In this document: positions 33,426-60,961 of the stretch, piece by piece
Layout of the letters: each line of letters opens with the position of its first letter
Position numbering within the stretch: the first letter of the stretch is position 1
DNA from: Nitrospira japonica
GTDB lineage: Bacteria > Nitrospirota > Thermodesulfovibrionia > UBA6902
DNA length: 64,000 nucleotides
NCBI GenBank assembly: GCA_020723105.1
Contig: DYJL01000001.1
Location: forward strand, 1-64,000
Reading direction: 5' to 3'
Made by a program: the position numbers and the translations under genes
Notes under the pieces: model-generated
What the model was told of the DNA's origin: nothing
What the model saw: the letters and a program-made list of their open reading frames with translations, nothing else
Databases searched by the model: none

Positions 33426-34195
33426 ACTAATTTTTCTAAACTTTTCTTTATGGTTACTGCTTCCTCAAGGGTCTGCGGAGACGCTTTATAAGACGGAAGA
33501 CCGTTAATATCGGATTCCATAATACTCTCGTTAAAACTTATCTGCCCCAGGAACTCTATAGCGCCAATGCTGTTTTTAATAAACTGCACATCCTCCTGTT
33601 TACGGACCTTGTTGGCTATTAAAAAGACCTTTTTCACCCTAAGTTCTTTTGCAAGATTTTTGACAGAGATAGCTGTTTGAATGCTCCTCTGTCCCGGTTC
33701 AACAACAACGATAAAGGCATCCACGCCTTCCGCAGTTCCCCTGGTCAGGTGCTCTATTCCTGCCTCCATATCAACGATGACAATTTCGTTCCTTTCTACA
33801 ATCAGATGTTTTAAGAGTCTTCTTAATAATGCATGTTCGGGACAGTAGCAACCTGATGCAGCAAACTTGGATTGGCCCATCACAAGAAGTGTGACGTTGT
33901 CTATTTTATAGCCAAAACCTTCAGGGATATCATCTACCTTTGGATTAATCTTGAATATATTGCCGCTGGTTCCGGGTTTTGCGCCGGTCCTCTCTTCAAT
34001 CAGTTCAGCCATTTCAGCAATAGGTTTTATTGTTTTTAGTTCATTCCCTGAGACGCCGAGCGCTGATGCAAGATTAGCATCCGGGTCTGCGTCAACCGCA
34101 ATAACTTTCTTGCCTTCCGATGCATATAGATGGCTTAACAGCGCAGACACAGTGGTTTTACCGACGCCGCCTTTGCCTGTAATTGCTATTTTCAT
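33422..34195 (-). CDS. cooC: CooC/AcsF-type nickel-insertion ATPase
   Basis: 257-aa MinD-like P-loop ATPase that matures carbon monoxide dehydrogenase/acetyl-CoA synthase. The deviant Walker A is KIAITGKGGVGKTT. The CooC-specific Cys motif is in ASGCYCPEHALLRRLL, and Walker B/Switch is VIVDMEAGIEHLTRGT. The CODH/ACS genes themselves are not in the window but are implied. It begins an operon with 5-FCL and folE, all on the minus strand. Confidence 0.9.
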   Translation of the reverse strand: MKIAITGKGGVGKTTVSALLSHLYASEGKKVIAVDADPDANLASALGVSGNELKTIKPIAEMAELIEERTGAKPGTSGNIFKINPKVDDIPEGFGYKIDNVTLLVMGQSKFAASGCYCPEHALLRRLLKHLIVERNEIVIVDMEAGIEHLTRGTAEGVDAFIVVVEPGQRSIQTAISVKNLAKELRVKKVFLIANKVRKQEDVQFIKNSIGAIEFLGQISFNESIMESDINGLPSYKASPQTLEEAVTIKKSLEKLV

Positions 34196-46673: not shown

Positions 46674-46759
46674 GCCGGAGTGGTGGAATGGCAGACGCGG
46701 TGGACTCAAAATCCACTGAGGGCAACCTCGTGGGGGTTCAAGTCCCCCCTCCGGCACCA
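46674..46759 (+). tRNA. tRNA-Leu (anticodon CAA), with encoded CCA
   Basis: 86-nt class-II tRNA. The acceptor arms are GCCGGAG/CTCCGGC with discriminator A and encoded CCA. The anticodon stem GTGGA/TCCAC encloses the loop CTCAAAA, giving CAA for UUG codons. A variable arm (GAGGGCAACCTC) and the T-arm GGGGGTTCAAGTCCCCC are present. Its 3' end abuts the integrase gene of the conjugative element and is the likely attachment site. Confidence 0.97.
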
Positions 46760-46767
46760 TTTTCTTT

Positions 46768-47895
46768 TCAATGAGTTACATTCCTCAGACATGTCACCTC
46801 TCTCTCCTCAAAATCAGCGACTGTGCCCAAATTGTGCCCGAAATGTGCCTGTACCCTCTGGATTTTTTCTTCTGATTCTTCATGGAGCCTGAATACCTTT
46901 TCGGATGCCTTTTTCAGATCTGTTTCATTGACAATGTTATATCTGTCAAATACTGCTCTTGTCTTATGACCTGAAATTTTCATGGCAACCCTTTCAGGTA
47001 CGCCGGCTCTTATCATGTTTCTTACTGCGGTTCTTCTGAGGTCATGGAAAAGTTTACCTGAAAGACCGATCTCCCTGCAGGCAGACTCCCATGCGGACCT
47101 GAAATCCTTGATGGATTCTCCGTTTCTAAAACAGACATAAGGACACTGAAGATACGATTTATCCCTGAGGGTTTTTCGTTTGAATAGAGTGTCGTAAAGT
47201 TCGCCCGTAAGATAAATTATCCTCGGTTCGTTATTCTTGGTTGTGCCTGCTTCGAGAGTTATTTTCCTTTCAAAGATATTTACCTGTTTCCATGTTAGCG
47301 ACAGAATTTCTTCTTTCCTCATTCCTGTGTAATAGCCGATAATGAAAACAGGCTTAAGATAATCAGGTAAGATATCTCTAAGCTTCAGGTACTCCGCATG
47401 TTCAAAGTAACCTGTCCTGATATTGTTCTCTTTTAGCTTGGGTATGTACGGAATCTGAATTACCTTCGGCGGGGTCTGTCTTGCTCCTAAAGTGAACATT
47501 CTTTGTAATGCGGAAAGTTCACGATTGATCGTTCCGTTACGTGCTTTCTGTTCCTGTCTTTCCACGATGTACCGCTGAATCAGATCCGAAGTGATGTTAG
47601 CAACTTTCATGTTCGAGAAAAATGAGCGCAAGTGATTCAAACTGTGCTCGACTCTCTTAAGAGATTTTCTGCCGTTAAGTTTGTAATCTGTAAGCAAATC
47701 TTTTTCAAGTTCTTCAAACATGACTCTGCCGGATTTGAGACCTGGAAATTTATTTTCCACAATTTGACCTTCTCTTAATTTCAGTAATCTCTTGGCATCA
47801 CTTTCTTTTGTCGAATTTGTGCTTTCACGGTACGATTTTCCATTACGGTAATACTTAATCCAAAATACCTGGCCTCGCTTGTAGAGCATTCCCAT
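46768..47895 (-). CDS. int: Tyrosine recombinase/integrase
   Basis: 375-aa phage-type integrase. The N-terminal arm-type region ([20 protein letters not shown]) is followed by a SAM-like core-binding domain (about 60-160). The catalytic domain has Arg in TGMRKEE (about residue 188), HDLRR (about 285), [14 protein letters not shown] with the nucleophile Tyr (about 316), and the connecting Lys in TLEAGTTKN. The gene ends 8 bp from the tRNA-Leu 3' end, as is typical of elements integrated in tRNA genes. GGAGG stands before the start; the stop codon of the XRE gene lies just upstream, so the two are co-transcribed. Confidence 0.93.
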
Positions 47896-50542: not shown

Positions 50543-50676
50543 TTGTAATAACAGCTTTGCTAAGCATTAAATCGAATTACAAACGAATACATATAACACA
50601 ACGAATATGTAATACATTAGAACATCACATCTACTGATGTATTACCCAAAAAATAATAAAACTTTGGAGGTTGCCC

Positions 50677-51381
50677 ATGAATAACGGGAACGGCAAAAAA
50701 ATTGACAAACATGGAAACGCGAAAGAGGACAACAGCAAACAGGTTGATGAGGCTTTGCTGGTCTGGCAGTCACTGCAAAAGCAGATTAAGTATCTTTGTG
50801 AAAAAATAATCCGCTTCAATTCTATTAATACAGTTGAGGATTATATGCACGAAGCTTTTCTTGCCTGTTATGACGCAGTATGCCGTTATGATTCTTATGT
50901 AACCAAAAAGAAAAAAGAGCATGCCGCAGATCAAAAGGCAATAGGATGGAGTAAAGAAGTTCTTTGTGATCCCGGCAGTAGCTCACCTGCGCCCTACCAT
51001 ATTACGCAAATCGATAATGCAACACAGATGATCAATAAAACAATCATGAAGATTGAGGTCTTTGCTTTCTGGTATATCCAAAAAAGATTTTTCAAGCTCG
51101 CGGATATGAAAGAGGTTGTATTCAATATTTTCACTGAGGATGGGGAGTATATTGAAACGCTCTCTAATAGTGAGTACCGGAAAAAGAAAAAAGTTCTTGA
51201 ATTAAGAAAATGCGTCATCAGTACATCGAATATATTTAAATCAATGGATAAGCCTGATAGTGATGAGGACGAAGACAGCATTCAGGAATTCGTTGATCTT
51301 ACATTCATGGGTTTTAATGAAGAAGTCCGGATGATGCTTGAAGAGGATATTTCGAGATTTAAACTGGGGGTGGCAATTTAG
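50677..51381 (+). CDS. Sigma-70 region-2-like protein (candidate half of a split sigma factor)
   Basis: 234-aa protein. The segment VEDYMHEAFLACYDAVCRYD matches the sigma region 2.1-2.2 pattern (D-D-x-x-Q-E-x-x-L-G-L-x-x-A-V-x-x-Y-D), and after an insert of about 50 residues VFAFWYIQKRFFK resembles region 2.3-2.4 (TYAYWWIRQ). No region 4 is found in this protein. The next gene, whose ATG follows directly after this TAG, carries a region-4-like HTH. TGGAGG 6 bp before the ATG at 50677 sets the start. Two-polypeptide sigma factors are known in Bacillus (SigO-RsoA). This is a motif-level match only. Confidence 0.5.
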   Translation: MNNGNGKKIDKHGNAKEDNSKQVDEALLVWQSLQKQIKYLCEKIIRFNSINTVEDYMHEAFLACYDAVCRYDSYVTKKKKEHAADQKAIGWSKEVLCDPGSSSPAPYHITQIDNATQMINKTIMKIEVFAFWYIQKRFFKLADMKEVVFNIFTEDGEYIETLSNSEYRKKKKVLELRKCVISTSNIFKSMDKPDSDEDEDSIQEFVDLTFMGFNEEVRMMLEEDISRFKLGVAI

Positions 51382-52008
51382 ATGTATCATCATATGAAAC
51401 CACTGGATAAGAAGGAAATAGACAAATTATTCAGGCAGATCAAAAAGGACCGTCCCGACCTGCATACCCTGGAAAAAAATGAAATGGCAAGTTTAAGCCA
51501 TATCGGTCATCTCTATGTATTGGACAATGTAACACTGAAAGAGCTTTCAGAGTTCTGGGGCATTAGTAAAAACGGCGTCAGGAAACGGCTAAAAGAAAAA
51601 GTAAAATCCAAATCATGGTTTTTCAAATTGGCGGATAAAAATGAAAATGCAATGATAAAACTCTGTCCCGGTGACGCATTTCCCGATATTGGTGAGTACG
51701 TTAATTTTCTTAAATGGCGCTCTATATGTAAAAAGGAAAAAAGTATCTCAATAGCGGAGGTGGCAAATGTTCTGGGAATATCTAAAAGAACGGTTTATCG
51801 CTATATAAAGAGCGGGGAGCTTCATGCTTGTGGAGCTGATGAGACTATGATAATGAGGTTTTCATTTAATGCATTTGTTCAAAAAATAATTTTGGAAACA
51901 GAAATCAAACTCATTTTAATGAAAAATTATATCCAGAAAAACCAGAGAGAATTCAACATACCTGAAGGCAGCTCAGGTTCATGCTTTTGTGACACTGTGA
52001 GACAATAG
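51382..52008 (+). CDS. Double-HTH protein (sigma region-4-like plus excisionase-like HTH)
   Basis: 208-aa protein. Residues about 40-75 (HLYVLDNVTLKELSEFWG ... ISKNGVRKRLKEKV) resemble sigma region 4 or a similar HTH (L-T-L-x-E-I-x-x-x-x-G-I-S). Residues about 115-145 (SISIAEVANVLGISKRTVYR, then SGELHACG) form a second HTH of the excisionase/HTH_17 type. It starts at the base after the previous stop codon, so synthesis is coupled. The last dozen codons overlap the first unit of the 43-bp repeat array at 51974. It may be a DNA-binding partner of the region-2-like protein. Confidence 0.55.
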   Translation: MYHHMKPLDKKEIDKLFRQIKKDRPDLHTLEKNEMASLSHIGHLYVLDNVTLKELSEFWGISKNGVRKRLKEKVKSKSWFFKLADKNENAMIKLCPGDAFPDIGEYVNFLKWRSICKKEKSISIAEVANVLGISKRTVYRYIKSGELHACGADETMIMRFSFNAFVQKIILETEIKLILMKNYIQKNQREFNIPEGSSGSCFCDTVRQ

Positions 52009-52102
52009 CGGGAACTCAGGTTCCCACTTTCGTGACACTGCGAGACGAAAGCAGGAACCCTGGTTCCTGCTATTGTGACACCGTGAGATAAAACTGGGAA
52101 CT
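51974..52102 (+). repeat. Three tandem 43-bp palindromic iterons before parB
   Basis: Units at 51974-52016, 52017-52059 and 52060-52102, exactly 43 bp each with no spacers. They share C-A/T-GGTTC, a central GTGACAC-x-G-x-GAGA and a 3' GGGAAC/GGAACC arm. Unit 2 folds into CTTTCGT/ACGAAAG plus GGTTCC/GGAACC. The junction of units 2 and 3 forms GCAGGAACC-CT-GGTTCCTGC. The left arm of unit 3 (CTATTGT) is complementary to the right arm of unit 1 (ACAATAG). Changes between units often preserve pairing. It is a candidate centromere, origin or operator. Confidence 0.9.
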
Positions 52103-52165
52103 GACAAAAAGTAATATCACGATAGAACCATTTCTATCCTATAGTATCAACGGAGGTAAGTAAGA

Positions 52166-53428
52166 ATGAGTGAAACAAGTAAGACAACATCATTGGAGTC
52201 ATTATCGCGAGATCCTGTTCTAATGGTTGAAACTGAAAAATTAAAGGTTATTGATCAACCTATGCCCGATCTTGATTCAGGAATTCTTCTGTGGTTGGAA
52301 AATAGTATAAAGGAATTTGGCATCAAGATTCCGATTAGAATTTCATCCGACTATACGATCATCGACGGCCGGAACCGGTACGCAATCGCGAATAAATTGA
52401 AAATGGATATGGTCCCATGTATCATCTCAGACACGAACTCGAATCCTCTTGAGCAGGTCTTAAAGTATGACCTGGAGCTTGGCAGAAGAGCCATCTTGCC
52501 GCATGAAAGAAGCAAACTACTTATTAAAAGGAATAAGTATTACAAAAAATGCGAGGAAGACAGCATTGATTGCTGTCTAACGAAGATTATCCCTGAGATG
52601 CATGATACGGCAAAAAAGATTTATGAGGTCTCAAGGAATATGTCCATTATTATGAACATCGCAGCTCAGCCGCGGGAAGTTCAGGCAGCCTTTATAAAAG
52701 AGATTGCGGTAGTGGTTGATGATAAGCTGGACGGTAATCTCTCGGAAGAGATAAAGAGACTGAGTCAAACTGAGATCGATTTAAAGAAGGAGCTGGAATC
52801 AACCAAAATAGCCCAGGACAGGATTCTCAAGGAATACGAAGATATGAAAAATCAGTTTGTCAGATTACAGGGGAACATGAAGGCTGACATAGAAAATAAA
52901 CTTAAAACCAAAGAAAAAGAACTTGAAGAAAGATATAAAGTTTCATCACCCGAGGAAATACAAAAACTTGCCGGAAAAATACGGGAAGATGTCCACGAAG
53001 AATACGACAATGAACTTTATGATCTTCACGAAAAGCTGAAAAATATGTCCAAATCGCTCAGTGATAAAAGCGAGAAACAAGATAAATTAAAAGAAGAGTT
53101 AGCGGAATTGGAACAAAAGAAAAAAGATCTGGAACTCATAAATCAAAATCTCAAAAATAAAATAGGGGCTCACCATAATGTCATAGTGGGACTTGCGAGA
53201 CCTGACAAGTTCGCAAAGCGTTTGGAGATGACATTCAATGATCTTAACAACACATTCACAGGATTAACTGAAATTGGGTTTGATGGATTTGATGGTTATT
53301 TTATAGAGCACATGCGGAAAACGCTGGAAAAGATCAAAGACGTCACAGTGGAACTCGAAAAGCTTTTTCAGAAGATGTCTGCCAACGGCAACAGTGGTAC
53401 AGAGAATCTTGGAAAAATCGGAAATTAG
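52166..53428 (+). CDS. ParB-like partition/nuclease-fold protein with long coiled coil
   Basis: 420-aa protein. Residues about 20-130 are a ParB N-terminal domain with IDGRNRYAIANKLKM (the G-x-x-R-x-x-A box) and LPHERSKLL for the HTH-adjacent part. Residues about 195-350 form a Lys/Glu-rich coiled coil, and a helical C-terminus follows. No ParA is adjacent. The 3 x 43-bp array lies only 63 bp upstream, so it probably binds there, either for segregation of the excised circle or for autoregulation. GGAGG lies before the ATG. Confidence 0.78.
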   Translation: MSETSKTTSLESLSRDPVLMVETEKLKVIDQPMPDLDSGILLWLENSIKEFGIKIPIRISSDYTIIDGRNRYAIANKLKMDMVPCIISDTNSNPLEQVLKYDLELGRRAILPHERSKLLIKRNKYYKKCEEDSIDCCLTKIIPEMHDTAKKIYEVSRNMSIIMNIAAQPREVQAAFIKEIAVVVDDKLDGNLSEEIKRLSQTEIDLKKELESTKIAQDRILKEYEDMKNQFVRLQGNMKADIENKLKTKEKELEERYKVSSPEEIQKLAGKIREDVHEEYDNELYDLHEKLKNMSKSLSDKSEKQDKLKEELAELEQKKKDLELINQNLKNKIGAHHNVIVGLARPDKFAKRLEMTFNDLNNTFTGLTEIGFDGFDGYFIEHMRKTLEKIKDVTVELEKLFQKMSANGNSGTENLGKIGN

Positions 53429-55646: not shown

Positions 55647-56069
55647 ATGACACCCACACAACCATATTTTTACGAATTGATTTACCATCCGCAGACCAGG
55701 TTTTTCCTGCAAAAATTTAAAGAGGGCCCAGGCGCACGGGTATTTACGGACGTCGTAAACATGGCGCCTCCGGATGCACGGGACGAGGCTTTAAAACTGG
55801 GAGAGGCCATGGACTCCTTCTGCAAAAATATCTACCACGTGGAGATCAAGGCAGGAAGGTTCAACAAAAGTTACGACAGCTTTATACTTCAACCTGAAGT
55901 AACAGCGCTGAGGCTGACCTACATTTTAAATACATTGAGCGCGACACATCCCCAACACTACAGAAAATTCTTTGCCGCGATTGCGGCGTCCATCTTTAAG
56001 GGCATGGCCGCAGCCGGGCTGCAGGCGGAATTTGTTACGGGAGGTAATACAGATACATGTCAATCATGA
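55647..56069 (+). CDS. Unknown conjugative-element protein
   Basis: 140-aa protein of unknown function, helical, without membrane segments or cysteine motifs apart from SFCKNI. The start at 55647 is preferred (AGAGGA upstream); an in-frame ATG at 55602 would include a hairpin CCGGGTCACTCCCGG in its first codons. It overlaps the TraB gene by 13 bp. Confidence 0.55.
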   Translation: MTPTQPYFYELIYHPQTRFFLQKFKEGPGARVFTDVVNMAPPDARDEALKLGEAMDSFCKNIYHVEIKAGRFNKSYDSFILQPEVTALRLTYILNTLSATHPQHYRKFFAAIAASIFKGMAAAGLQAEFVTGGNTDTCQS

Positions 56070-57307
56070 ACAATCTGACAGAAAAGAAAAAACAGAAATT
56101 AAGGATGTTGTTGATAGTGGGGGGATTGGTGATCCTTGTAGTTATTATATCCTCCGTCATGGGCGGCAAGAACAAAAATAAAGATATGCAGGATAACGAA
56201 GCCCGGGAAAAGGGCAAGTTCTCTCTTCTCACGGAGAAGGTGGAGAAAGAATCGTGGATTGCCGCACAGGGGACTAACATCAAAAAGCTTCAGATTGAAA
56301 ATGAGGAATTCAGAAGAGAGATGGAATCGATCAAAGGTAACCTGGAGAATATTCAGGCAAAACAAAAGGACATCGAGATTACAGCAAGAAATGCCGTTTT
56401 CTCTAACTCGGCCGGCAAGCCGGAAGATAAAATCTCAAAGCCCAATGCTGTTCCGCCATTACCAAGAATAGATAAAGACAGGACTGGGACCACGGACAGT
56501 AGCCCGGAGCATGAAGGGAAGCGGCCGAGGAAGGATTCGGCAGCATCCAGGCGCGACCTCTCCATCAAGGTCTATACGGATAGTTCAACCGTAGAAGCTG
56601 AGAAACCTGATACTAAAAAAAAGAAAGCAGAAAGCGGCCCAGCGATAACTCTTTCAAGCGGCAGTTTCATGAAAGCGGTAATGCTTAACGGCATTGACGC
56701 GCCGACGGATTTCGGGTCAAAGACCGAACCCTATCCTGTATTGATGAACGTTAGTGATACGGCAATTCTGCCTAATTTGCACAGGATGAATCTTAAAAAC
56801 TGCTTTATTATCGGCGCTGGATACGGAAATCTTGCAGATGAGAGGGCGTACATTCGGACAGAGAAATTAAGCTGCATAACGGCATCAAACAAGGTAATTG
56901 ACACTGCATTGAAAGGGCATGCAATAGGAGAGGACGGCAAGCTTGGCATAAGGGGCAAGCTGGTCAGCAAACAGGGTCAGCTTATAGCGCAGTCTCTTCT
57001 GTCCGGAACACTTTCCGGGCTTGCCAAGGCGTTTAAGCCTCAGCAGAGCGTGGCCATCAATCTAAACCCTAATAGCGGCGGCACGGGTTACGCTACACCG
57101 GGGGCAGAGGAGGTTTTACGTTCCGGTGGGGCGGAAGGTGTAAGTTCTGCAATGAATAAGGTATCGGAGTTTTACCTAAAGATGGCTGAAAAAATTTTCC
57201 CCATAATCGAGATAGATGCCGGACGAAAGGTGGATATTCTTGTGCTTGAGCAAACGGATTTAAAGCCCGGCGATGCCGGATCAGGAGGATTAAATCATGA
57301 AAAATAG
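56057..57307 (+). CDS. traB: TraB/VirB10-type T4SS channel protein
   Basis: 416-aa inner-membrane-anchored protein spanning the periplasm. TM is at about 17-36, a coiled coil at about 60-110, a Ser/Pro/charged linker follows, and then a VirB10 domain (about 190-405) with PVLMNVSDTAILPNLHRMNL, FIIGAGYGNLADERAYIRTE and GIRGKLVSKQGQLI. It forms the outer-membrane core complex with TraK and TraV. It overlaps traV by 11 bp. Confidence 0.9.
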   Translation: MSIMNNLTEKKKQKLRMLLIVGGLVILVVIISSVMGGKNKNKDMQDNEAREKGKFSLLTEKVEKESWIAAQGTNIKKLQIENEEFRREMESIKGNLENIQAKQKDIEITARNAVFSNSAGKPEDKISKPNAVPPLPRIDKDRTGTTDSSPEHEGKRPRKDSAASRRDLSIKVYTDSSTVEAEKPDTKKKKAESGPAITLSSGSFMKAVMLNGIDAPTDFGSKTEPYPVLMNVSDTAILPNLHRMNLKNCFIIGAGYGNLADERAYIRTEKLSCITASNKVIDTALKGHAIGEDGKLGIRGKLVSKQGQLIAQSLLSGTLSGLAKAFKPQQSVAINLNPNSGGTGYATPGAEEVLRSGGAEGVSSAMNKVSEFYLKMAEKIFPIIEIDAGRKVDILVLEQTDLKPGDAGSGGLNHEK

Positions 57308-57815
57308 TTTACTCATATTAATTGTCTTATTTGTAGGAATCATTATGGCAGGTTGTGCGCCAAAGTATGCCTGCAAGGAAACAATTCCGAAAACGCGGTG
57401 TGCCTCACTAACAGAGGTATATGCTGAACAGGTTACAGGGCTGCCGGCTTCCGATTCAGTGGAAAAAGTTTCATCTCAAGAAGCGATAATTCGGAAAAGA
57501 GACAGAAAAGACGGGCATTATGCAGCCCTGATAGTTTCGTCTTTGAACAATAGTGGACAACATCGGGATTTAAACAGCGTTGAAATAGTCAAAGGCATGA
57601 AGGGCGATGATCAACTGCCCATTCTCAGGCCTCCCAAGGTTGTTCGGATATGGTTTGCGCCATGGGTGGACAGCAATGAAGACCTGAACATGGATACCTA
57701 CATCTATACGGAGATTCGCGGGACCAAATGGATACTTGGCGAGAAGACGCCAGGAAGCGGGAGGTCCAATACCTTGCCCGGAAATATCGGACGCATAACC
57801 GGTGCGCTTGAGTAG
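57297..57815 (+). CDS. traV: TraV-like outer-membrane core lipoprotein
   Basis: 172-aa lipoprotein with lipobox IIMAGC (Cys20), followed by a second pair CKETIPKTRC that resembles the TraV Cys pair. The C-terminal half (PILRPPKVVRIWFAPWVDSNEDLNMDTYIYTEI) matches the TraV pattern of interaction with TraB. It directly follows traB, as in F-type systems. Confidence 0.82.
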   Translation: MKNSLLILIVLFVGIIMAGCAPKYACKETIPKTRCASLTEVYAEQVTGLPASDSVEKVSSQEAIIRKRDRKDGHYAALIVSSLNNSGQHRDLNSVEIVKGMKGDDQLPILRPPKVVRIWFAPWVDSNEDLNMDTYIYTEIRGTKWILGEKTPGSGRSNTLPGNIGRITGALE

Positions 57816-57905
57816 TACAGAAACATATTGAGGCGCTGAAATTTCATTACCACAGGATTCCTGTGAGGGATAATCTCCGGAAATACTGAAAAGGAGGAAC
57901 ACTGT

Positions 57906-58199
57906 ATGAAATATCTCAAGGCAATACTGCCGGTCATGGCCCTAATGATTATGGGCCTGGCAGCCAATGCCTTCGCAGGCGCAAACGGCGCTGAATTCGC
58001 CCCGGTTGAGACAGCCCTGTTGGACTGGGCGCAGGGCGGGCTCGGCAGGGCGCTTGCACTGGGTATTTTCCTCGTGGGAACCGGCGTCGGCATCGCCAGA
58101 CAGTCGCTTATGTCCATTGCTACCGGATTAGGTGGCGGATTAGCCCTGTTCTATTTGCCGGACGTTATCACCAGTATCGTTGCAGCCATGATTGTGTAG
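57906..58199 (+). CDS. Conjugative pilin (TraA/VirB2-like)
   Basis: 97-aa protein: a long leader (about 1-24, ending NAFA before GANGAE) plus two hydrophobic helices (about 45-65 and 72-95) separated by a short basic loop (RQSL), the pattern of F-type and VirB2 pilins. AGGAGG lies 10 bp before the ATG. A hairpin directly after the gene (58214-58247) suggests higher expression of pilin than of the genes that follow. Sequence motifs are weak, so the assignment rests on layout and position. Confidence 0.7.
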   Translation: MKYLKAILPVMALMIMGLAANAFAGANGAEFAPVETALLDWAQGGLGRALALGIFLVGTGVGIARQSLMSIATGLGGGLALFYLPDVITSIVAAMIV

Positions 58200-58213
58200 C
58201 GTCAGGTATCCCG

Positions 58214-58247
58214 GGAAGCGGGAAGGTCATAAGACTTTTCCGCTTCC
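58214..58247 (+). terminator. Hairpin after the pilin gene, likely attenuator or mRNA stabiliser
   Basis: 15-bp stem GGAAGCGGGAAGGTC / GACTTTTCCGCTTCC with G-T pairs and a 4-base loop ATAA, followed only by ATCTTTTC, so partial termination is expected. Confidence 0.7.
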
Positions 58248-58300
58248 ATCTTTTCAGATGTAAAAAGTAATGATCAGACAAATATATGAGGAGTAATACA

Positions 58301-58522
58301 ATGCATATAGTAACGGTGCTGGACTATGACGGAAGTCTCCTGGCCGGATGCAGACCGAAACGGGCCCGCAAATTGATGAAAACGAAAAGGGCCCGGCCGG
58401 TGACATACAACGGAGCCTTTGCCATTCAATTAATAAGAAAAAGAGCGCATAAAGAAGAAGTCCGCTTAAATACCTGTGATGTAAACAACACAACATTAAT
58501 CAACGGAGGGAATGATCAATAG
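58301..58522 (+). CDS. Stand-alone RRXRR/PLMP-like mini-protein
   Basis: 73-aa protein. VLDYDGSLLAGCRPKRARKL, then MKTKRARPVTYNGAFAIQLI, fits the RRXRR (PLMP) module found at the N-terminus of IscB-type nucleases and related HNH proteins (V-L-D-x-x-G-x-P-L-M-P-x-x-P-x-R-A-R-x-L-L-x-x-G-x-A). No RuvC or HNH domain follows. It ends next to TraC (its stop is followed directly by the TraC ATG) and starts after GAGGAG, so it is co-expressed with the transfer genes. Role unknown; nucleic-acid binding is an inference from the family. Confidence 0.6.
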   Translation: MHIVTVLDYDGSLLAGCRPKRARKLMKTKRARPVTYNGAFAIQLIRKRAHKEEVRLNTCDVNNTTLINGGNDQ

Positions 58523-60961
58523 ATGGATGCCATCAAGGTAGCAGAGCAGTTATTAGAGAGAGAATCGTTAAGCGAACTTTTACCCTATCTGGCCTATGAC
58601 GATGAGCATAAGATATATGCGCTTGATGACGGCATAGGTTTTCTCCTGGAATGCTCTCCTTTGAGCCTTGCAGGCTCTGATACAGTGGCTGCCTTGAGGG
58701 GTGTGCTTGAGTCTTCGTCCAATCCGGTCGGCATGTGCATGCAGTTCATGCTGCTGTCAACCAGAGACATCAAGCCCGTTCTGGATCAGTACGTCCTGCT
58801 GCGCGAAATCCGTAACGGCAACAGTCTCTACACCGAGTTCTGCAAGAAGAGAAGGGAGTTTTATCTTGAGGGCTCAAAGAAGAGCATCCTTTCAGGATAT
58901 GAATACATTGTGCGGGATTTCAGGCTTTTTATCAGCGTCAAGCTTACGCTCAAGCTCAGGACCCCTGAGGAATACAAACGTGCGAAGATAAAAGCTGTAG
59001 AGCTGAGAAATACTATTGCCCAGGCGCTGAGGACCTCCTACCTGCATCCCCGTGCAGTCCCGGAAACAGAGCTGGTTTATCTTCTTAAAATGCTCATTAA
59101 TCCGTCTCATGAGCCCGAGACCGCTCCCCGGTGCGACCCTTCGATACCGCTTAAGGACCAGGTCGTGTATGCAGACAACAACATTGAGGTAAATAAAGAT
59201 TACATGATACTTGACGGCAAGTACTGCAAGAGTTTCACTGTCAACCAGTATCCGGAGGAATGGGATATCTCATCAGCCATTTCCTTTATAGGGGATGCAT
59301 ATGAGAATCTCAAGCAGATCCCAACAAATTTTTTTATTGTCTTCAACTGCATCACGCTGGACCAGTTGTCAACCGGCAAAAGGATACAGAAACTGTCTAT
59401 GTCGATCAACTACCAGGCCTTCGGCCAGATCGCCAAGTTTCTGCCGGACATTCTAAGGAAAAAGGAAAACGTAGACAGGCTGATGGCGCAGATGGCAAAC
59501 AAGGAGCAATTGGTCAAGGCATACTTCCATGTCTTTGTGTACGCCGATGATATGGAGCACCTGCAGCAGATGACAGGACAGATCAAGAGTATCTTCCGAA
59601 ATATCGGCATCTTACTGCAGGATGACACATACATCAACCTTCCGCTTTTTCTACAATCGCTGCCTATGGGGATTGTCCATGAGGCGCAGGGCAGCCTCAA
59701 GCGGTACAAAACACTGACGACAAGCAACGCCTCGGAGCTTGCGCCTGTACAGGCTGACTGGAAGGGCACGGGCACGCCTGTTATGCTGCTTTTTTCACGC
59801 AGAGGGCAGACGATGACTTTTGACCTCTTTGACAACAGGCAGGGCGGCAAGAATGCGATAGTCGTTGCAGGCACGGGCGGAGGTAAGAGCTTCTTTGTCA
59901 ACGAAGCAGTTGTTTCGTATCTCGGCCTCGGCAGTAAAATATGGATCATCGATGTAGGCGGTTCGTACAAGAAGATAGCAGAGGTCTTTGGCGGGGAATT
60001 TATCACATTCGGGCCTGAGTCAAAGGTCAATATTAATCCGTTTACCAAGATCAGGGATTTCAAGGAGCTTCAGGACGAGCATATGTCGGTTTTAAAAGGC
60101 ATGCTGGCGCAGATGGCGTCGCCGAACAACCCCATTACGGATATAGAATTCTCCTATCTGGAGGAGGCCATAGGGGAGTGTTTCATTAAATACCATGCGA
60201 ATACAACGATAACAAACATTGTAGAGTATCTGGCCAATGGCCCGGATTTAAGACAGCATGACCTGGGCAAGATGCTTTTCCCGTATACGAACAGGGGCTC
60301 ATACAGGAATTACTTTGAAGGGCCGAGCAACCTGAGGCCTGAGAGCAATTTTGTGGTGCTTGAACTTGAGGAGTTGAAGACAAAGAAGGATTTGCAGGAG
60401 GTTGTGCTGCTGTCTCTGATTCACCAGATACAGCAGGATATGTACCTTGCAGCAGGCAAAGAAGATGTAAAGAAACTGGTTATCATGGATGAGGCATGGG
60501 ACCTCCTGGGAGGCGGCAATACCGGAAAGTTTATGGAGGACGGGTACCGGCGTTTCAGGAAATATGGCGGAGCGGCAATTTCCATAACCCAGAGCTTCGA
60601 AGATTTCGACCGGTTTCCGGCAGGCAAGGCGATCATTGCCAACAGCGCCTTCAAGTGTTTCCTGAGACAGGAACATGCGAGCATCGAAGCGCTACGGAAA
60701 TCAAAGCAGGTAGTTTTACCCGAACACTTTTTTCAGATGATCATGTCGGTCAATACCGATCCGGGCAACTATTCCGAGGTCTTTTTGATGACACCTCTGG
60801 GATACGGCGTTGGCCGGTTGATAGTGGACCGGTTTACACAGCTTTTGTATACCACCGATCCGGATGAAAAGACGCGCATTAAGCGTTTCCTTGATACCGG
60901 GCTGGAATTAACCTTTGCTATCGAGAAAGTTATGGAGGAAGAAAAAAGTCTGAGGTCCTGA
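58523..60961 (+). CDS. traC: TraC/VirB4-type conjugation ATPase
   Basis: 812-aa cytoplasmic/inner-membrane ATPase energising pilus assembly. The N-terminal TraC-specific domain has FLLECSPLSLAG. Walker A is AGTGGGKSFF near residue 452, Walker B is KKLVIMDEAWDLLGGG near 652, and RRFRKYGGAAISITQS follows. The length matches TraC of F-like systems. Confidence 0.92.
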   Translation: MDAIKVAEQLLERESLSELLPYLAYDDEHKIYALDDGIGFLLECSPLSLAGSDTVAALRGVLESSSNPVGMCMQFMLLSTRDIKPVLDQYVLLREIRNGNSLYTEFCKKRREFYLEGSKKSILSGYEYIVRDFRLFISVKLTLKLRTPEEYKRAKIKAVELRNTIAQALRTSYLHPRAVPETELVYLLKMLINPSHEPETAPRCDPSIPLKDQVVYADNNIEVNKDYMILDGKYCKSFTVNQYPEEWDISSAISFIGDAYENLKQIPTNFFIVFNCITLDQLSTGKRIQKLSMSINYQAFGQIAKFLPDILRKKENVDRLMAQMANKEQLVKAYFHVFVYADDMEHLQQMTGQIKSIFRNIGILLQDDTYINLPLFLQSLPMGIVHEAQGSLKRYKTLTTSNASELAPVQADWKGTGTPVMLLFSRRGQTMTFDLFDNRQGGKNAIVVAGTGGGKSFFVNEAVVSYLGLGSKIWIIDVGGSYKKIAEVFGGEFITFGPESKVNINPFTKIRDFKELQDEHMSVLKGMLAQMASPNNPITDIEFSYLEEAIGECFIKYHANTTITNIVEYLANGPDLRQHDLGKMLFPYTNRGSYRNYFEGPSNLRPESNFVVLELEELKTKKDLQEVVLLSLIHQIQQDMYLAAGKEDVKKLVIMDEAWDLLGGGNTGKFMEDGYRRFRKYGGAAISITQSFEDFDRFPAGKAIIANSAFKCFLRQEHASIEALRKSKQVVLPEHFFQMIMSVNTDPGNYSEVFLMTPLGYGVGRLIVDRFTQLLYTTDPDEKTRIKRFLDTGLELTFAIEKVMEEEKSLRS

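Follow-up and report, generated by a model that had tools for sequence, protein, structure and literature searches.

Background

By analogy, the nearest functional parallel to the locus described here is KfrA of plasmid RA3. Its site O_K consists of five 9-bp repeats, three in one direction and two in the other, over kfrAp; binding depends on the number of repeats, and KfrA is linked to partition proteins (PMC7783346). In the stretch of DNA analysed here (the window, the first 64,000 nucleotides of a contig of Nitrospira japonica), an iterated site likewise precedes the gene for a protein with a long coiled coil in a conjugative element. Unlike O_K, this site consists of six strictly alternating half-units of 21.5 bp, and the domain joined to the coiled coil is ParB_N instead of the HTH of KfrA.

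KorB of plasmid RK2 has an HTH of its own and acts at single short operators scattered over the plasmid, unlike the present locus, whose sites are clustered in a single array and whose ParB-like protein has no recognisable ParB HTH. KorB is an example of a ParB-family protein with a regulatory role on a conjugative plasmid (PMC11790492). The combination of a ParB-family protein and an HTH partner is shared with KorB and KorA, which control conjugative-plasmid genes (PMC11790492).

The srpMRC locus of the SXT/R391 integrative conjugative elements combines a ParM-like gene with short repeats, both direct and inverted, to which the small protein SrpR binds; the srpC repeats are four 13-bp sites adjoining srpM (PMC4489591). 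Like SXT/R391, the element studied here is integrative and conjugative, has transfer genes of the F type and encodes a ParM-like protein. Unlike srpC, its array is separated from the ParM-like gene by about 35 kb and adjoins a different cassette.

Structure of the array

The original prediction, of three contiguous 43-bp units with a shared core ahead of a parB gene, was borne out. TRF finds 3.0 contiguous 43-bp copies at 51972-52102 (75% matches, no indels, score 157), and a second repeat search returns the same three copies at spacings of 43 and 43 bp. Each contains the core GTGACACNGNGAGA, which begins at 51989, 52032 and 52075, exactly 43 bp apart. No fourth exact copy of this core occurs in the 3.13-Mb genome, all three lying within the array, and a search for further copies of the array elsewhere in the genome returned none. 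The predicted placement is equally correct: the final 35 bp of the preceding ORF (51382-52008) lie within the array, which ends 63 bp ahead of the start codon of the ParB-like gene (ATG at 52166). The array encodes the C-terminal end of the upstream protein, which extends beyond the C-termini of its relatives. A small inverted repeat, GATAGAAccaTTTCTATC, lies at 52121-52138, between the array and the parB start.

Six alternating half-units describe the array better than three 43-bp units. An unbiased two-strand motif finder returns six 18-bp sites on strands + - + - + -, in one register, with a motif score of 152 against a shuffle maximum of 104. In the frame of the motif, the steps between sites alternate between 20 and 23 bp, corresponding to dyads every 21.5 bp, or about two turns of DNA. 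The half-units, of about 21.5 bp, alternate strictly and have the consensus GGTTCC-N7-GT-N2-CAC; most of their conserved letters belong to one of two boxes, GTTC(C) and GT-N2-CAC. Five of the six reach 23-26 bits in leave-one-out scoring against about 14.5 bits for the best site elsewhere in 144 kb of the contig (table 1).

The self-complementarity of the array (94) is the highest of 3,194 sliding windows in the 64 kb (mean 23, s.d. 7.2) and exceeds that of all 200 dinucleotide shuffles. The accompanying claim of compensating changes holds for two base pairs, which vary yet stay paired, but was overstated, as other changes break the pairing. The pair 52031/52047 varies from T-A to C-G across the dyad, and the outer pair of the junction palindrome from G-C to A-T. 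G.G and A.A oppositions recur unchanged in each of the three cores; because positions 17-18 alternate GA/CT with orientation, no core dyad is perfect.

Table 1. Coordinates of the array, its parts and the genes around it.
Feature	Position	Strand	Evidence or score
Tyrosine integrase, adjoining tRNA-Leu at 46674-46759 (left end of element)	46768..47895	-	
Sigma-70 region-2-like protein, 236 aa, first cassette gene	50671..51381	+	
Double-HTH protein, 208 aa; HTH ~38-73, MerR/Xis-like winged HTH ~119-158, long C-terminal helix	51382..52008	+	
Whole array, six 21.5-bp half-units alternating (three 43-bp units)	51972..52103	.	repeat search, TRF, motif finder, self-complementarity
Half-unit 1 AGGTTCATGCTTTTGTGACACT	51975..51996	+	leave-one-out 23.9 bits vs 14.7 best elsewhere
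Half-unit 2 GAGTTCCCGCTATTGTCTCACA	51996..52017	-	leave-one-out 26.2 bits vs 14.5 best elsewhere
Half-unit 3 AGGTTCCCACTTTCGTGACACT	52018..52039	+	leave-one-out 26.2 bits vs 14.8 best elsewhere
Half-unit 4 GGGTTCCTGCTTTCGTCTCGCA	52039..52060	-	leave-one-out 24.3 bits vs 14.1 best elsewhere
Half-unit 5 TGGTTCCTGCTATTGTGACACC	52061..52082	+	leave-one-out 22.9 bits vs 14.3 best elsewhere
Half-unit 6 CAGTTCCCAGTTTTATCTCACG, degenerate	52082..52103	-	11.9 vs 12.6 bits; placed by register, not score
Junction ('A') palindrome GGGAACTCAGGTTCCC	52010..52025	.	
Junction ('A') palindrome AGGAACCCTGGTTCCT	52053..52068	.	
ParB_N domain plus long coiled coil, 420 aa	52166..53428	+	
Type IV secretion genes, TrbI/TraB-, TraV-, TraC-type; first part of transfer region	56057..60961	+	

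The cassette and its host element

The array lies within a cassette of three genes, encoding a sigma-region-2-like protein, a double-HTH protein and a protein with a ParB_N domain and a coiled coil. Region 2 of the sigma-like protein aligns with sigma factors from this genome and from related ones (hhalign, E 3e-5, probability 73%). This protein also matches the N-terminal part of the sigma-70 model TIGR02937 (positions 8-47, E 0.034), and the double-HTH protein its C-terminal part (126-156, E 2.2e-5), so that a split sigma-like pair is possible from the sequences. A sigma region 4 in the double-HTH protein was considered and, despite the TIGR02937 match, is unsupported by profile comparison.

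In the double-HTH protein, the second HTH and the helix that follows match the winged HTH fold of MerR/BldC/Xis-type proteins. Unlike those proteins, it has an extra HTH ahead of this domain, and the half-unit of the array has two boxes. Predicted models of the double-HTH and ParB-like proteins are of moderate confidence (pLDDT 79 and 72).

The ParB_N match (PF02195) of the window protein is at the cut-off, with 26.3 bits; the homologue in a related element (G048, described below) reaches 45 bits. In the model, this N-terminal domain superposes on Myxococcus ParB (Z 12.3, 2.1 Å, 75 residues). Sequence and model both place a ParB N-terminal (putative CTPase) domain in the protein. Profile comparison with the best ParB chains finds no sequence match to a ParB-type HTH past the N-terminal domain; alignment of the structural model to ParB chains reaches residue 127 in one chain only.

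A large integrative conjugative element adjoining tRNA-Leu carries the array in its left arm. Its transfer genes are of the F type; further along lie TraG and, about 40 kb from the array, genes for a coupling protein and an HD-domain relaxase candidate. No 15-bp repeat of the tRNA end that could mark attR was found within 144 kb of the contig. No ParA was found in the region of the element covered, in agreement with the prediction that none lies near the array; the sole ParA-family match on the contig, at 34001-34186, is outside the element. A ParM-like actin gene is present at contig 87610-88593, about 35 kb from the array. Together with a small upstream gene it occupies contig 87610-88988, outside the window, and the two are possibly the partition system of the element. 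Also outside the window, contig 102330-112116 has the look of a defence island, with SNF2-like helicase, methylase-like and large ATPase-like genes, as judged by eye from ORF starts.

Related elements

The cassette was searched for in 230 genomes, drawn from the class and from a phylum-wide sample. With an orthologue of the HTH gene, it was found in three further elements (G035, G048 and G205); no sigma-like gene was found in the G048 element. A fourth relative, G059, has a different DNA-binding gene, and carries an N-terminal domain weakly related to that of the ParB-like protein. The G035 and G048 contigs are Nitrospirota MAG records CALZJD010000339.1 and JACRHH010000008.1. Matches in G168 and G170 were dropped, the cassette being absent. 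No relatives of the ParB-like protein were found in plasmids, and none of the double-HTH protein in plasmids or viral contigs; matches of the ParB-like protein to phage and viral contigs cover the ParB_N domain only and were not used.

Related elements, in which the original prediction proposed to look for the same repeats, gave a divided answer: two of the four relatives carry an array and two do not. G035 (locus L020) has a 2 x 42 bp array in the same gap between the HTH and parB genes, with 28-bp repeats at 42-bp spacing and alternating palindromes, amounting to three to four half-units only. G048 (locus L019), a 30%-identical relative, has eight alternating half-units, spaced by about 21 bp, immediately ahead of the HTH and parB genes, which are nearly contiguous there. 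This spot is the strongest inverted self-match of L019, and the two of 147 scanned segments of the locus (19 kb) that reach at least four alternating pairs both fall on it. The G048 array is imperfect, with a motif score of 118.4 against a shuffle maximum of 118.0. A Rep3 initiator gene lies at L019 11824-12510, with three direct iterons of 21-22 bp just upstream (L019 11551-11612); these iterons and the alternating array are about 0.4 kb apart.

No array is detectable in G205 or G059. Inverted repeats upstream of the sigma-like gene in G205 are suggestive but irregularly spaced, and were not counted as an array. In the G205 homologue of the ParB-like protein, P22_AR_N stands in place of ParB_N, ahead of the same coiled-coil tail; the P22 antirepressor N-terminal domain is recognised with E 1.4e-31 (L021 7930-9108).

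The HTH proteins of the array-bearing elements are 27-28% identical, and the G205 orthologue 22%. Scanning the relatives with the window matrix, and the reverse, gave no detection either way; because the matrices do not cross-recognise, we do not claim sequence homology between the arrays. What the window, G035 and G048 have in common is the architecture, with different letters, and these three arrays are the only ones known.

Function of the array

Of the roles originally proposed, namely a centromere or parS, an origin with iterons or an autoregulatory site, the regulatory one is favoured. We give about an even chance to the reading, drawn from sequence comparison, that the array serves the double-HTH protein next to it as an operator with several cooperatively bound sites, and controls the genes on the parB side. 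One monomer would occupy each 21.5-bp half-unit, with one HTH per box (GGTTCC and GTNNCAC); the alternation would create head-to-head and tail-to-tail contacts, and the bound monomers would all sit on the same side of the helix, at intervals of two turns. Whether the array is occupied would govern transcription of the ParB-like gene, and perhaps that of the transfer genes beyond; in G048, where the array precedes the HTH gene, it would bring autoregulation as well. We infer the binder and its match of one HTH per box, along with the cooperativity and the sign of the regulation.

As expected of an iterated operator, the repeated site has no comparable match elsewhere in 144 kb of the contig and recurs in two of four relatives. 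The double-HTH protein is more probably the binder than the ParB-like protein, because it has two HTH segments for the two boxes of each half-unit, a predicted MerR/Xis-like domain with a long helix, and a place in all three array-bearing elements. Co-occurrence does not by itself separate the candidates, since both proteins are present in all three. The letters of the site diverge along with the HTH protein, which suggests a co-evolving site and specific binder. Against the operator reading, G205 keeps an HTH orthologue yet shows no array, and in two elements (the window and G035) it is parB that the array adjoins. No convincing sigma-70 promoter was found between array and parB. It is conceivable, but a long shot, that the sigma-region-2-like and double-HTH proteins jointly recruit RNA polymerase to the array and switch on the ParB-domain clamp and the transfer genes, as a two-gene sigma-like regulator in a family of Nitrospirota conjugative elements not described before.

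Binding by the ParB-like protein itself, at a parS or centromere or at a KorB-like operator or CTP-clamp loading site, is unlikely, though it deserves serious weight. The array stands just upstream of that gene in the window and in the same gap in G035, and the protein has a ParB-like N-terminal fold; ParB-family proteins bind palindromes, and KorB is both clamp and repressor (PMC11790492). The profile match ends, however, after the N-terminal domain. The lack of a ParB HTH recognisable by sequence and the exchange of the N-terminal domain in G205 both lower the standing of this protein as binder, and G059 has the weakly related domain and no array. A parS or centromere is further disfavoured because the element has a ParM-like gene elsewhere and no ParA was found; a ParA-type Walker ATPase next to parB, which ParABS would call for, is missing from the region of the element covered. 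That the array is an iteron origin, or part of an oriT on the integrase side of the element, where the oriT of SXT lies, is improbable. Repeats, inverted repeats and a position near int would suit either, and the distant relaxase candidate and coupling gene, though they weaken the case, are compatible with oriT. An iteron origin has direct repeats beside an initiator gene, whereas these half-units alternate; it is disfavoured because a search for the Rep3 family found no such initiator in this genome and the Rep3 gene of G048 has its own iterons beside its array.

A centromere bound by the double-HTH protein, in a one-protein partition system like that of staphylococcal pSK1 Par, is quite improbable. 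Iterated sites ahead of a coiled-coil gene would suit a segrosome, and the second HTH weakly resembles the DNA-binding domain of pSK1 Par on centromere DNA (8csh), at a Z of 4.8 that is within the range of common folds. The element has a separate ParM-like gene with its small upstream gene, and comparable SXT/R391 elements use SrpM and SrpR (PMC4489591). Least of all do we expect the array to act in RNA, as a leader or attenuator hairpin of the parB mRNA. The predicted folding of the transcript is strong (z -5.4 to -7.9), but any inverted repeat would fold, the G048 array does so weakly (z -2.8), and no Rfam family is matched at the gathering score. The even 21.5-bp spacing of the dyads is explained by the helix repeat of DNA, not by RNA, and the core mismatches are fixed in all units.

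Significance

With the operator of the double-HTH protein as the preferred reading, the array provides a concrete candidate for the site of control in a family of conjugative elements about which little is known. Half-units that alternate every two turns are kept in three elements while their letters change, which suggests that binder and site co-evolve. A parB gene with repeats upstream need not mean a centromere, because in a relative with the same cassette the ParB domain has been exchanged for an antirepressor domain.
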